Assembly: GCA_003164335.1 (NCBI GenBank)
Contig: PLTF01000088.1
Location: 34,761 to 77,479 of the forward strand
Direction: 5' to 3'
DNA length: 42,719 nucleotides
DNA from: Fibrobacterota bacterium
GTDB taxonomy: Bacteria > Fibrobacterota > Chitinivibrionia > Chitinivibrionales > Chitinispirillaceae
Shown: one piece after another, positions 15,570 to 33,723 of the stretch
Position numbering within the stretch: position 1 is the stretch's first letter
How the letters are laid out: each line of letters starts with the position of its first letter
Made by a program: the position numbers and the translations under genes
Notes under the pieces: model-generated
Seen by the model: the letters and a program-made list of their open reading frames with translations, nothing else
The model's database searches: none
What the model was told of the DNA's origin: nothing

Positions 15570-16031
15570 TCAGCAACTGCAGCACATCGGGGTGCCGTTC
15601 ATCATCATCATGCAGCAGCAGCCACAAGTCATCATCGACATCATGGCGTTGCAGCACTGCTGAATCATCTTGCAGCACTCCGCGTCTTTGCTGCTCCAGG
15701 TCATGCACAAGCCGTCTTTGGTCATCTCGCACTTGCACATGCCGCTGGCCATGTTGATGGTCATCATGGGCATGCCGTTCTGCATCATGCAGCAACTCAT
15801 CATGCTGCCTGACATCATGGTGCAGAGATTCTGCATCATGCCGGCGGCCATTTCATCCTTTGTCGAGCACATGATTTGCATTCCCATAGCGGTGGTTTCC
15901 ATTTTCATGGTGCACCGGGGAACCATCATCATGTTCATCGGCATGGTTCCGGGCATCATCATACCCGGCATCTGGCCCATACCCATTACCATTCGGTCCA
16001 TGGCCATAGCATTCATTGCCATCGGATTCAT
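15570..16031 (-). CDS. Extremely methionine- and cysteine-rich protein
   Basis: By hand count the 153-residue product has about 48 Met and 19 Cys, over 40 percent sulfur amino acids. The first third is mostly Met, Pro, Gly and Asn without signal peptide. The rest contains Cys pairs (SCC, ECC, QQCC, GCCC, MCCSC) in a patterned segment that includes MCKCEMTKDGLC and SSKDAECC, so it looks folded around metal or disulfides rather than random. The ATG has a superb ribosome site (GAGGAGGTG) and the gene has its own terminator, so it is expressed. Candidate roles are soft-metal (Cu(I)/Ag/Hg) binding, oxidant buffering or storage of reduced sulfur. I recognise no family. It sits just beyond the DsrE/TusA/YezD operon. 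Confidence 0.8.
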   Translation of the reverse strand: MNPMAMNAMAMDRMVMGMGQMPGMMMPGTMPMNMMMVPRCTMKMETTAMGMQIMCSTKDEMAAGMMQNLCTMMSGSMMSCCMMQNGMPMMTINMASGMCKCEMTKDGLCMTWSSKDAECCKMIQQCCNAMMSMMTCGCCCMMMMNGTPMCCSC

Positions 16032-16032
16032 A

Positions 16033-16092
16033 CTACACCTCCTCATGCATGGCAGGTCGCTTGCTTTTGAGCAATAGCACCCACGGATTCAT
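16033..16092 (-). CDS. Possible leader peptide upstream of the Met/Cys-rich gene
   Basis: A 19-codon frame begins with the same nine bases (ATGAATCCG) as the main gene and stops with TAG one base before the main ATG. The main gene's ribosome site lies inside it, so translation could be coupled. AAGG lies 8 bases before its start. It may be a chance frame. Confidence 0.3.
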   Translation of the reverse strand: MNPWVLLLKSKRPAMHEEV

Positions 16093-28926: not shown

Positions 28927-29547
28927 GTGGCAGAGAGAGTAAGACAACCGGTTGCATTGGCTCTGGGCCTTATCGCAGCCTCGGCCGTCGTTTTTTCGTT
29001 TACCGAGGCGCAGAGCAGCGCTCACTATGTGCGTAGCGAACACGACTTTGCAATTCCTTCAGTGTCGCTTGAGGACCAGAACGGTGCCGCGGTGTCGTTG
29101 CCGTCGCTTGTCGGGGACAATAAATTCGTGCTGCTGGATTTTTTTTACACCCGCTGCAAAACCGTTTGCCCGATAGTCACGTCGGCTTTTGCAAATTTCC
29201 AATACCGGCTGAAGCCCGATACGAACCGCGTGCGACTCGTATCGATCACCATAGACCCGGAACACGATTCTGCAGGAGCCTTGGCTCTCTTTAAGAAGCG
29301 CTATCGGGCACAGTCCGGCTGGACCTTTTTAACCGGGAAAGAAGATAAGGTGCAGAGAGCCATGAAAACTTTCAGTTCCTATACAAAGAATAAATTGGGG
29401 TTCTACCCGCTGGCATTTCTGTACCTCCCGCAAAAACGGCAATGGATTCAATTTGAGGGGTATATTCCGGTCGACGATTTGATTACGGAGTACCTTAAAG
29501 TGGATGATCGGGAACAGCGGCGAATTGCAGGAAATGCACACTCTTAA
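28927..29547 (+). CDS. SCO1/SenC-like thioredoxin-fold protein
   Basis: The 206-residue protein (GTG start) has an N-terminal membrane anchor or signal (about 8-24) and a SCO-type thioredoxin fold with the Cys77-x3-Cys81-Pro motif (CKTVCP), then VRLVSITIDPEHDS. SCO proteins carry Cu(I) to cytochrome oxidase or act as thiol oxidoreductases. The distal copper-binding His of SCO proteins is not visible: the corresponding region reads LGFYPLAFLYLP. Thiol-redox activity or altered copper binding is therefore possible. It is the first gene of the NosL/ABC run, 18 bases before the fusion gene, and starts 49 bases after a repeat. Confidence 0.87.
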   Translation: MAERVRQPVALALGLIAASAVVFSFTEAQSSAHYVRSEHDFAIPSVSLEDQNGAAVSLPSLVGDNKFVLLDFFYTRCKTVCPIVTSAFANFQYRLKPDTNRVRLVSITIDPEHDSAGALALFKKRYRAQSGWTFLTGKEDKVQRAMKTFSSYTKNKLGFYPLAFLYLPQKRQWIQFEGYIPVDDLITEYLKVDDREQRRIAGNAHS

Positions 29548-29565: not shown

Positions 29566-30597
29566 ATGAAGACGGCCTTGTTTTTAATCTGCACTCTGTT
29601 CACGGCCATCGCACTGAGTGCGGTTGAAAATCCCCAGAACTGTATCAACTGCGGGATGAATCGGGAGGCCTATGCCTATAGCAGGGTCCTGATCGTTTTT
29701 GACGACACCCTCCAGGCCGGGACGTGCAGCATTGCCTGCGCACGCAAGGTTGCGGCGGATAACGCCGCAAAGAAAATCACCAGGCTTAAAGTCGCCGATT
29801 TTACGAGTCTGAAGCTGATCGATGCCCAAACGGCCGTCTGGGTCGTCGGCGGCAAAAAACCGGGAGTGATGAGTTCCACACCTGCGTGGGCTTTTTCCGA
29901 CAAGGGCGGGGCGAATAAATTCATAGCGGCATTCGGCGGGAAATTGTCAACGTTTCAGGAAGTCTGGGGAGGAAAACTCGCCGGATGCCTGTGCGGCAAG
30001 TGCACCTGCGGAAAGTGCCTGTGTGGAAAAGACAGCACGGGTAAATGTGTGTGCGGAAAAAAATGCACCTGTGGGAGTAAATGCATCTGCGGCGGGAAAT
30101 GCGTGTGCGGCAGCGATACGGCTCATGCACACGCCGGGTGCATGATGCAGACGTGTCCGATGATGAAGGCGGGTGGCCGGACCATACCGAGCACGGCAAA
30201 AGTTCCGAGTGAACAGGACAAGTGCCCGGTGTGCGGCATGTTCGTTGCCAAATATCCCGGATTTCTGGCGCAAATACAGTTCAAAGACGGTACGACCGCA
30301 TTTTTTGACGGGCCAAAGGATTTTTTCAGGTATTACGGCTCCGTTGACCATTACAATCCCGGCAAAAAAACCGCGGATATCGGGAAGGTCTTTGTCACGG
30401 ACTACTATACGCAGGAGAACATCGACGGACTTACTGCATGGTATGTGACCGGCAGTGACATAAATGGTCCCATGGGACGGGAATTGGTCCCCTTTGCGAC
30501 CGAAGCGGCAGCCGGAGAGTTCAGGAAAGATCATAACGGGTCGGCTGTGCTGCGGTTCAAGGATGTAACGGCGGGAACGCTCAAGAGTCTGGAATAG
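29566..30597 (+). CDS. NosL-metallothionein-NosL fusion protein
   Basis: The 343-residue exported protein has a signal peptide (about 1-20), a NosL-like domain with CINCGM (26-31), a Cys-rich linker at 141-182, and a second NosL-like domain from ~218 with CPVCGM (220-225) and FFDGPKDFFRYY. The linker holds seven C-x-C-G units, 14 Cys in about 42 residues, plus Cys192 and Cys197 near a His-Met-rich patch (HAHAGCMM). NosL binds Cu(I) for nitrous-oxide reductase assembly; metallothionein-type CxC arrays bind many Cu(I)/Zn ions. The fusion should therefore be a high-capacity periplasmic copper store or chaperone. AAGGAGG lies 6 bases before the ATG. It sits between SCO-like and ABC genes. No nosZ is in the window. 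Confidence 0.85.
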   Translation: MKTALFLICTLFTAIALSAVENPQNCINCGMNREAYAYSRVLIVFDDTLQAGTCSIACARKVAADNAAKKITRLKVADFTSLKLIDAQTAVWVVGGKKPGVMSSTPAWAFSDKGGANKFIAAFGGKLSTFQEVWGGKLAGCLCGKCTCGKCLCGKDSTGKCVCGKKCTCGSKCICGGKCVCGSDTAHAHAGCMMQTCPMMKAGGRTIPSTAKVPSEQDKCPVCGMFVAKYPGFLAQIQFKDGTTAFFDGPKDFFRYYGSVDHYNPGKKTADIGKVFVTDYYTQENIDGLTAWYVTGSDINGPMGRELVPFATEAAAGEFRKDHNGSAVLRFKDVTAGTLKSLE

Positions 30598-30610: not shown

Positions 30611-30919
30611 ATGAGGAGGTCGACATTCATGCTCGGAACCGGGGCGGCGCTTGCGGCTGCCGCCCTTTTGCTCCTCGTCCATGCGGAGGCCGGCGCAGGA
30701 AGGGCAGCGCTTGCCGATGCGCGCACCGAGCGGCTCGTTGCCGCGCTCGGGCTCACCGATCTTGCCTTATTTACCGAAGCAAGCTATACCCGGCATCCCT
30801 CACTTACCGACCTGAACACGCCGTTCCAGGATTCACCGCTGTCCTTCGAACATTTTCCGACCGGCTCACTTATGCAACCACCCCTATCTCTGGTTCACCC
30901 CCATGTCGCGAAGCATTGA
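30611..30919 (+). CDS. Small membrane-anchored or exported protein in the copper operon
   Basis: A 102-residue protein with a twin-Arg/hydrophobic N-terminus (about 1-28, Ala/Leu-rich) and a soluble tail. The C-terminal part contains a few His residues and a single Met (FEHFPTGSLM, VHPHVAKH) but no Cys. An alternative start at 30629 has a stronger ribosome site (GAGGAGG). Its 3' end overlaps the permease gene by 17 bases, suggesting coupling. I recognise no family; a metal-related or ABC-accessory role is only positional. Confidence 0.6.
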   Translation: MRRSTFMLGTGAALAAAALLLLVHAEAGAGRAALADARTERLVAALGLTDLALFTEASYTRHPSLTDLNTPFQDSPLSFEHFPTGSLMQPPLSLVHPHVAKH

Positions 30920-32036
30920 ACGGCAGCTTCACCTGATCGATTTTACCGTCGGATCGATTTTGCGGCGCAAAGGCAAAAATGGAGCACTCCTGCTTGTCTA
31001 TACGCTCGTTATCTTCGTTCTTGCCTCGGTGCTTTTTTTTACCCGGTCCCTGCGGGCCGAAGCGGCTGCGGTCCTGAAAAATGCCCCGGATATTATCGTT
31101 CAGCGCACTCTGACCGGTCGCTATCAGTTTATTCCGATGGGCTATGCCGACAGCCTGCGAACCATCCGCGGTGTCGCTTCGATAGCGCCCCGGCTCTGGG
31201 GGTATTATTATGACGGCGGATTCGGCGCGAACTATACGCTCATGGTGCCGAACGATAGCACGGTACAGCCGGGCACCATCGAAATCGGCAGCGGTATTGC
31301 GCGGCTGCGCAACATCCGCGTTGGGGATATCGTCCCGCTTATCGGGCATGACGGCAATCCGCAGACCTATACCGTTGCGCGTATCCTGGACAACGGATCG
31401 GCACTGGTATCGGCCGACCTGCTGCTCATGGCCGCAGCTGATTACCGCTCGCTCTCCGGCATCCCCGACAGCTTTGCCACCGATCTCGTCCTGACGGTAC
31501 GGAACCCGAAGGAATTCCCGACCATTGCCGAAAAAATCACCCGCCTTCTCCCGGACACCCGGCCCATTGTCAAAAATGAAATCCTGCGCACGTACGATGC
31601 GGTATTCAACTGGCGGGCGGGCATTATCCTGCTGCTCTTTACCGTGGTGATACTTGCCTTTTTCATCTTCTCCTTCGATAAGGCAACCGGCCTTTCCGCC
31701 GAAGAGCGCAAGGAGATCGGCATCCTCAAGGCAATCGGCTGGGAAACCGGCGACGTGCTTGCCATGAAATTCTGGGAGGGTATCGCCCTGTCGCTGATGG
31801 CGTTTTTGGCGGGAGCAATTCTCGCCTATGTGCATGTTTTTTTCGGCAGCGGGTTCCTGTTTGCACCGATTCTCAAGGGGTGGTCGACCCTGTATCCCTC
31901 ATTTTCCCTGGCGGCGCATATAAACGCCGGCGACCTGGCGGCGCTTTTTTTCCTTTCGGTGGTTCCCTATACTATTGCGACCATAGCCCCGGCCTGGCGC
32001 GTCGCGGTCATCGATCCCGATGCGGTGATGCGGTAA
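30903..32036 (+). CDS. FtsX/MacB-type ABC transporter permease
   Basis: The 377-residue protein has one N-terminal helix (about 28-47), a large extracytoplasmic domain (about 50-235) and three C-terminal helices with the coupling segment EERKEIGILKAIGW. This is the mechanotransmission-type permease architecture (FtsX, MacB, LolCE). Partnered with the ATPase that follows and the copper-chaperone fusion before it, it may extract or hand over a periplasmic substrate, as NosY-type permeases are thought to do; the substrate is unknown. It starts inside the preceding small gene. Confidence 0.88.
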   Translation: MSRSIERQLHLIDFTVGSILRRKGKNGALLLVYTLVIFVLASVLFFTRSLRAEAAAVLKNAPDIIVQRTLTGRYQFIPMGYADSLRTIRGVASIAPRLWGYYYDGGFGANYTLMVPNDSTVQPGTIEIGSGIARLRNIRVGDIVPLIGHDGNPQTYTVARILDNGSALVSADLLLMAAADYRSLSGIPDSFATDLVLTVRNPKEFPTIAEKITRLLPDTRPIVKNEILRTYDAVFNWRAGIILLLFTVVILAFFIFSFDKATGLSAEERKEIGILKAIGWETGDVLAMKFWEGIALSLMAFLAGAILAYVHVFFGSGFLFAPILKGWSTLYPSFSLAAHINAGDLAALFFLSVVPYTIATIAPAWRVAVIDPDAVMR

Positions 32037-32044
32037 GGAGCGCC

Positions 32045-32731
32045 ATGATCGATATCCGAAATGTCAGCAAGGTTTTCAATGCGGGGCGGCCCAATGAGTT
32101 CACGGCAATAGCCGGTGTTTCGCTCCATCTCACGTTCAGGGAGGCGACCATTCTCAAAGGGCCGAGCGGATCGGGCAAAACAACGCTCTTAAGCCTCATC
32201 GGCTGCATGACGCGCCCCACTTCAGGACGGATCTTTGTCGATAATCGCGAGATCACGAGCCTTCCCGAGCGGTTCCTTACCGGGATCCGCCGCTCAACCT
32301 TCGGTTTCATTTTCCAGCGATTCAACCTGCTGCGCGGGTTCACCGCGCTCGAAAACGTGATAGCTCCTGCGCTTCCGGAGGGTGAAAAGTATTCGTCGCT
32401 GAAAAAACGGGCGATCAATATCCTGGGGATGCTGGATCTCGATAACCGGTACGACGCAAAAGCCGAGTGGCTTTCCGGAGGTGAGGCGCAGCGGGTGGCC
32501 ATTGCGCGGGCGCTTATCAACAACCCCTCGATCGTCATTGCCGACGAACCGACGGCGCATCTTGACGAAAAACTGTCGGGCGAATTTATTGCAATCATGG
32601 AAATTCTCAAGAAAGAGGGCAAAACGATCATCATCGCCAGCCACGATCCCCTGGTATACGAATCGACGCTTACCGACCGGATTGTGGTAATCCGCCATGG
32701 TGAAGTCGTCGGGGAACCGGCGCGGCCATGA
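32045..32731 (+). CDS. LolD/MacB-type ABC transporter ATPase
   Basis: The 228-residue ATPase has Walker A GPSGSGKT (39-46), the Q-loop in FIFQRFNLL, signature LSGGEAQRVAIARAL, Walker B IVIADEP and the switch His in ASHDP. Sequence style is that of LolD/MacB/FtsE ATPases, which pair with FtsX-type permeases such as the one just upstream. GGAG precedes the ATG by 4 bases. The gene overlaps the next one by four bases (ATGA), so the membrane protein downstream probably belongs to the same complex or pathway. Confidence 0.93.
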   Translation: MIDIRNVSKVFNAGRPNEFTAIAGVSLHLTFREATILKGPSGSGKTTLLSLIGCMTRPTSGRIFVDNREITSLPERFLTGIRRSTFGFIFQRFNLLRGFTALENVIAPALPEGEKYSSLKKRAINILGMLDLDNRYDAKAEWLSGGEAQRVAIARALINNPSIVIADEPTAHLDEKLSGEFIAIMEILKKEGKTIIIASHDPLVYESTLTDRIVVIRHGEVVGEPARP

Positions 32732-33723
32732 TCCTGCATCCTGCCATTCTCGCACTCCTCGCCTCGTCGCTCCTCATCGGCACCATGGTGCTCTATGCCG
32801 CATGGTATGGGGTTCGCATCGTAGTGCAATGGGATGGAACAAGCGGGAGCGAGCGGCAGATTCTTTTAGAACGGCGTACCTACTTTGTTGCAACGATCGT
32901 CAATTACTTCCTGGTAATTCAGATTGCCTCGCTCTTCTGGCTGGTATACACCGCGGATACACTGCATACGCTCTTTGCCGGGACCATGTGCGCCGTGGGA
33001 ACCTTTGAGGTCAACCGGTTCGGTTTCCCGACGGTGCTTATCAAGCTTGCAACCAGCATTCTCGCGGGAATATGGATCATCCTCAATCATGCCGATAACA
33101 AAGGATTCGATTACCCGCTTATCAGGGTTAAATACTGGTTCCTGATCATTCTTGCACCCTGCATTGTCGTGGAAAACGTTGTCCAGTGGCTTTTTCTCGT
33201 CGGGTTGCATCCGGATATCATCACCTCCTGCTGCGGAAGCCTGTTCAGTCCGGGAGGACGGAACGTGGCGGCGGAGATGGCTGGTGCGCCGATCGTTCCG
33301 GTTCTGTATGTCTTTTTCTCCGTCCTGGCCCTGACTGTCGTGAGCGGAGCATTGTTTATCATTCGCGGAAGAGGCGCGGTATTTTTCTCTCTCGCAAGCG
33401 TTGTAACCGGAGCGATTTCGATCGAGGCGGTTATTTCCGCGCTCTCGGTATACCTATACGAACTTCCGTCGCATCACTGCCCGTTCTGCATCCTGCAACC
33501 GGAATACCACTATATCGGCTATCCTATTTACGGTGCAATACTAACCGGGGTGATCTGCGGAGCGGGTGTGGGAGTGCTGTCGTTATTCAGGAAAATTCCG
33601 AGCCTGGCGAAGGATCTGCCGCCTTTTCAGCGGCGTCTTGCCGTGGCAGCGGTTGTTGCTTTTTCAATTTTGCTGGTGACGGCGATAGCGGCGATTACCG
33701 GGTCACACTATCATGTGGGGTGA
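32728..33723 (+). CDS. Eight-helix membrane protein with Cys pairs, copper-operon member
   Basis: The 331-residue protein has about eight hydrophobic helices. Between helices lie an adjacent Cys168-Cys169 (in ITSCCGS) and a His-His-Cys251-x2-Cys254 motif (HHCPFC) followed by Tyr/His-rich sequence. Such paired cysteines suggest a membrane disulfide relay, as in VKOR/DsbB-type proteins, or a metal site. I do not recognise the family with certainty. The start overlaps the ATPase stop (ATGA), which ties it to the NosL-ABC operon of which it is the last gene. It ends in SHYHVG. Confidence 0.75.
   Translation: MILHPAILALLASSLLIGTMVLYAAWYGVRIVVQWDGTSGSERQILLERRTYFVATIVNYFLVIQIASLFWLVYTADTLHTLFAGTMCAVGTFEVNRFGFPTVLIKLATSILAGIWIILNHADNKGFDYPLIRVKYWFLIILAPCIVVENVVQWLFLVGLHPDIITSCCGSLFSPGGRNVAAEMAGAPIVPVLYVFFSVLALTVVSGALFIIRGRGAVFFSLASVVTGAISIEAVISALSVYLYELPSHHCPFCILQPEYHYIGYPIYGAILTGVICGAGVGVLSLFRKIPSLAKDLPPFQRRLAVAAVVAFSILLVTAIAAITGSHYHVG

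Follow-up and report, generated by a model that had tools for sequence, protein, structure and literature searches.

The window, by which we mean the whole 42,719-nucleotide stretch of DNA that was analysed, carries a gene (29566..30597, +) that encodes two NosL domains joined by a cysteine-rich linker. Its frame runs from an ATG at 29566 to a stop codon ending at 30597 and is uninterrupted over 343 codons, specifying a protein of 343 aa, and the fusion gene is confirmed to be real. The protein begins with a predicted Sec-type signal peptide at about residues 1-19 (MKTALFLICTLFTAIALSA; 29566..29622, +), read from the sequence and from its hydropathy (maximum 2.39 over 15 residues). The first domain, NosL1 (about residues 26-133; 29641..29964, +), was delimited by its Pfam match, by invariant columns and by an AlphaFold model. 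It is followed by a metallothionein-like array (residues 141-182; 29986..30111, +) that reads CLCGKCTCGKCLCGKDSTGKCVCGKKCTCGSKCICGGKCVCG and contains 14 Cys in seven CxCG units, and by the remaining linker (residues 183-216; 30112..30213, +), which is not hydrophobic and holds the patch HAHAGCMMQTCPMM. The second domain, NosL2, spans about residues 217-336 (30214..30573, +). Against Pfam NosL (PF05573, cut-off 24 bits) the whole protein scores 152 bits, with separate matches of 50 bits for NosL1 and 106.5 bits for NosL2. Both domains contain the Cu(I)-site motif CXXCXM, as CINCGM (residues 26-31) and CPVCGM (residues 220-225). An earlier note on this DNA had read here two NosL-like domains with CxxCGM sites around a 42-residue linker with seven CxCG units, followed by a His/Met/Cys patch, and the analysis bears out each of these readings.

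NosL is a periplasmic Cu(I) chaperone in the assembly of N2O reductase. In Paracoccus the protein takes part in CuZ assembly and binds a single Cu(I) at attomolar affinity, and clade II NosL carry CXXCXM (PMC6530538); CuZ also requires NosFY and NosD (PMC7558416). Both window domains match this family and keep the CxxCGM site, and NosL1 is also alike in fold. Its AlphaFold model, obtained from an alignment of 15 NosL1 sequences, has a mean pLDDT of 82, and the sole significant matches in a PDB fold search were NosL structures, crystal and cryo-EM (7og7, 7osf and 7znq; TM 0.61-0.67, E 4e-5 to 4e-4), among them NosL in the NosDFYL transporter complex. The model shows a NosL fold for NosL1, to which the fold comparison applies; NosL2 is placed in the family by sequence. 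NosL1 has in addition a second Cys pair, C54-S-I-A-C58, which in the NosL1 alignment is invariant in the subfamily as C54-S-x-x-C58. Denitrifier NosL has a lipobox with a lipidated N-terminal Cys, whereas the fusion has two domains, a Cys array, no lipobox that could be seen by eye in the signal region MKTALFLICTLFTAIALSAVENP, and no NosZ found in the same genome. Most of the separate NosL relatives also look non-lipidated, so that the lipobox does not appear to be a feature of the wider family.

The fusion gene lies within an operon. A gene for a Sco1/SenC-type copper protein (28927..29547, +; Pfam SCO1-SenC, 70.6 bits) is located 18 nt upstream, and the downstream genes follow at gaps of at most 13 nt or overlap. 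These encode a conserved small membrane-anchored protein (30611..30919, +), recognised by comparison with operon homologues, an FtsX/LolCE-type ABC permease (30903..32036, +; profile matches, 48-66% identity to operon homologues), a LolD/FtsE-type ABC ATPase (32045..32731, +; profile matches and operon homologues) and a conserved multi-helix membrane protein (32728..33723, +) with invariant SCCG and HHCPFC motifs. The latter matched no Pfam or NCBIfam family, and a fold search with it gave no PDB match at E 0.001. A promoter scan gave a result at chance level.

Across relatives the operon reads Sco or redoxin, NosL1, NosL2, small protein, FtsX-like permease, LolD-like ATPase and membrane protein, and the order from NosL1 to the membrane protein is widespread in the Geobacter phylum (that of Geomesophilobacter sediminis). 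Identities to the window range from 38 to 71% per gene (FtsX 48-65%, LolD 53-71%, membrane protein 44-52%). In the Geobacter phylum nosL1 lies next to nosL2 as a gene of its own, and both encode a signal peptide; the window has a single gene that lacks the second of these signals. In the closest relative seen, genome G629 from the order of Geomesophilobacter, the genes are arranged alike, except that the two NosL genes are not joined and a redoxin-like gene takes the place of Sco; its FtsX is 66%, its NosL2 65% and its NosL1 56% identical to the window sequences. A joint alignment of NosL1 and NosL2 misplaced NosL1 rows on the NosL2 half, and the domains were therefore aligned apart. In a tree of NosL1 the domains of the window and of G629 are sisters (SH-aLRT 97, on a short alignment); the NosL2 tree did not resolve the position of the window. 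The small operon protein has Ala (LTDLALF) where its family has a nearly invariant Cys (LTDLCLF), and given the loss of this residue the window copy of the operon may be changing function.

Comparison with these operons shows, at the level of sequence, the descent of the fusion from separate genes. The NosL pair is, by the same comparison, a fusion of two normally adjacent operon genes, and the pair itself is not new. A hydrophilic linker in the window (its 15-residue hydropathy maximum is 1.07, that of the signal 2.39) replaces the NosL1 stop, the spacer and the NosL2 signal peptide, with residues 183-216 occupying the place that the second signal peptide has in separate NosL2 genes. This is a true fusion rather than a missed stop. 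An assembly or sequencing artefact that joined two genes could be suspected, considering that the host assembly is a draft of 164 contigs and that no second copy of the fusion is known. We regard this as highly improbable: the frame is open throughout, unrelated coding sequence of about 75 residues stands in place of the second signal peptide, which is beyond the reach of one base error, and the contig belongs to the host by its ProA. Homologues of the ProA encoded on this contig are 63-78% identical in 21 of the 23 other genomes of the host family (63-71% to same-family ProA; a fragment from the second genome of the genus reaches 78%), and these identities assign the contig to that family. 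The window also contains a nitrogenase component-1-like protein pair (PF00148; 19066-21980, +).

Besides the window protein, true NosL-NosL fusions were found only in L063, L064 and L065. Long apparent fusion frames in many relatives turned out to be two ORFs with stops between them. The L065 protein (330 aa, genome G329) has NosL1 and NosL2 in one frame without a Cys array, and the small protein and FtsX genes come next. Its linker, in which the common charged tail is retained (ADSRAAREKRKK), is free of Cys, in contrast to the array in the window linker, and the two fusions are likely independent. In L064, NosL1 is joined to another NosL1. Other partners occur as well: in L055-L058 and L061 a NosL-type domain is followed within one protein by a CxxCH cytochrome c-like region, and in L013, L133, L135, L179, L182 and L183, all from the Geobacter phylum, NosL1 is joined to a long Met-rich, barrel-like region (about 480-505 aa, some ended by the locus edge). 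The NosL domain thus fuses readily, with a variety of partners (NosL, CxxCH region, Met-rich region).

What is new here is the array, the domains and the operon being already known. The interdomain stretch comprises about residues 134-218 (85 residues), including HAHAGCMMQTCPMM, and in 20,000 shuffles of these 85 residues seven CxCG were never reached (mean 0.5). One repeat position, DSTGK at residues 156-160, is without Cys, so that the array looks like eight positions of which seven are intact. A Pfam search of the linker matched no family, and thus no described metallothionein family. The array resembles metallothioneins such as MymT and SmtA in being Cys-rich (14 of 42 residues) and in its CxC spacing; metallothioneins are small and free-standing, whereas this array is internal to an exported two-domain protein of 343 aa.

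Food for thought is where the array came from. The stretch after the NosL1 domain varies widely between relatives. Among 104 distinct NosL1 proteins from relatives, this tail is of a charged IREKR type in 40, carries at least three His in 27 and ends almost at once in 30, while in six it bears a small group of Cys (four of GCDCC type, one ECC and one CKCG, the last in L136); L064 would be a seventh in the Cys-tail count and was set aside as a fused NosL. In L136 the CKCG follows the domain at about the distance at which the window protein has its first CLCG. The G629 NosL1 tail has no Cys array, with just a CRCC near the N terminus of the protein. Against the same 104 proteins, the window protein is the only NosL-bearing frame compared that has more than one CxC, and among the proteins compared the array is restricted to it. 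An expansion of a small Cys tail may have given rise to the array, and the single CKCGK of L136 is in line with this origin, which is suggestive rather than proof. Since these tails are often rich in metal ligands (three or more His in 27 of 104, a small Cys cluster in 6 of 104), an expanded Cys tail fits the trend.

Alternatively, the array may be a neutral repeat expansion, without a role of its own, in a disordered linker left by an accidental gene fusion. Its presence in one genome, the decayed DSTGK unit and the variability of the stretch after NosL1 in relatives would agree with such a history. Yet the seven units have held on to their 14 Cys despite differences at synonymous sites: the Cys, Cys and Gly residues are retained at all 21 codons, with 11 TGC and three TGT for Cys and several codons for Gly, although this argument is biased by counting intact units alone. 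An exported poly-thiol would, moreover, likely be costly, and we find a neutral origin very improbable.

Searches for a second copy covered a wide range of genomes. Neither fusion nor array was seen elsewhere in the host phylum (168 genomes, 167 without the host), and no NosL with a Cys array was found in a sample of 395 genomes from the Geobacter phylum. The order of Geomesophilobacter (141 genomes), a GTDB-wide scan of close relatives only, 72,556 plasmids and the viral contigs searched likewise yielded neither fusion nor array. A few other DNA matches to the CxCG.CxCG pattern, barely above the reversed control, lay in unrelated or doubtful frames. The open literature yielded no description of a NosL with a Cys array, subscription papers being mostly beyond the search. 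The array is thus observed in one genome. The interpretation given in the earlier note holds in part: the domain-architecture search that it proposed, for NosL with CxC arrays, returned no second protein in the genomes and plasmids searched, and the architecture with the array is without a second example, but a NosL pair is known, both as adjacent genes and in the L065 fusion. The further suggestion of the note, that the protein could gather many Cu(I) ions in the periplasm and deliver them through the NosL sites, is plausible. Within the host phylum NosL is rare (7 of 168 genomes), and the other genome of the genus is without it, which makes horizontal acquisition likely; the GC content is not distinctive.

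Another question regards the client of this system. The host genome is 98% complete, and NosZ was not found in it, TIGR04246 giving only a match to the C-terminal CuA region; the same search recovered a full NosZ in a control genome (G168). A nos_propeller search was uninformative, none of its controls giving a match, and TIGR04246 was used for NosZ instead. Full NosZ was present in one of 29 other NosL-bearing genomes tested. The host does encode a cbb3-type CcoN, close to genes for cytochrome c subunits, and a fusion of a Tat-type metallophosphatase with a cupredoxin-like domain bearing the CuA-like motif SCDVYCGEGHDGM (L194, 583-1767, +, contig C42), which is a possible copper client. With no NosZ found and with these two proteins present, the client is probably not N2O reductase.

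We lean towards the interpretation that the fusion protein serves as a periplasmic Cu(I) buffer and relay that would feed the ABC machine of the operon and Sco. Metal binding, its stoichiometry, the direction of transfer and the client are all inferred. One exported periplasmic protein would present two NosL-type Cu(I) chaperone domains on a flexible, thiol-rich linker. This linker could bind a Cu(I) cluster, perhaps of 7-9 ions given 14 Cys and the usual Cu-thiolate ratios, and so raise the local copper supply, with both CxxCGM sites loading from and unloading the store. From NosL2, Cu(I) would pass both to the ABC machine of FtsX/LolD type and to Sco, a copper protein in oxidase assembly (PMC7558416), and Sco would deliver copper to an oxidase. 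On this view the copper would serve to assemble an enzyme that is not NosZ, with the cbb3-type oxidase or the CuA-motif protein as the most likely client. Our working analogy is NosL docking on the NosDFY transporter, here with a built-in copper reservoir. The copper-loading NosDFYL complex likewise has a NosL domain beside an ABC permease and ATPase and a probable role in copper assembly; the window operon differs in having no NosD and a permease and ATPase of FtsX/LolD type. Several points speak against a buffer and relay: oxidation in the periplasm may turn the thiols into disulfides, one repeat position lacks Cys, the array occurs in one genome, the closest relative has an arrayless tail and the small protein has lost its Cys.

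The array could also act in detoxification, merely sequestering excess copper (or silver or mercury) in the periplasm, with NosL delivery secondary or lost. CxC arrays are typical of metal-buffering metallothioneins (PMC7558416), and the window encodes a second Met/Cys-rich protein at 15570-16046. Nonetheless, the fusion gene sits within the conserved Sco and ABC operon and not next to efflux genes, and both CxxCGM sites are intact, for which reasons we judge this role unlikely. The second protein is a 158-aa ORF on the opposite strand (15570-16046, -) without a Pfam family, rich in stretches such as MSCCMMQNGMPMM and MTCGCCCMMMM; the CMMQNGMPMM in it is similar to the patch CMMQTCPMM in the fusion, and it is possibly a second metal-binding protein. 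Quite improbable, in our view, is a metal-free array whose Cys form disulfides or, as a thiol buffer, hold the NosL sites in the reduced state. The redoxin-like gene at the Sco position in G629 and the second invariant Cys pair of NosL1 would fit a thiol-redox linker, but redox motifs are mostly CxxC, the repeated CxCG spacing is unusual for them, and the adjoining His/Met/Cys patch suggests metal ligands.

Returning to the buffer and relay, a more specific and tentative idea, which we would not yet bet on, is that of a single-chain copper capacitor: the array would load many Cu(I) ions and feed them singly to an ABC-driven, NosZ-independent assembly machine, a design not described before. If the store is real, it would be a natural metal store that is covalently part of a chaperone pair, and one could measure, within one molecule, how metal moves from thiolate cluster to delivery site. 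Finally, the fusion points to a widespread operon that combines NosL-type chaperones with an ABC transporter of their own and an undescribed membrane protein.
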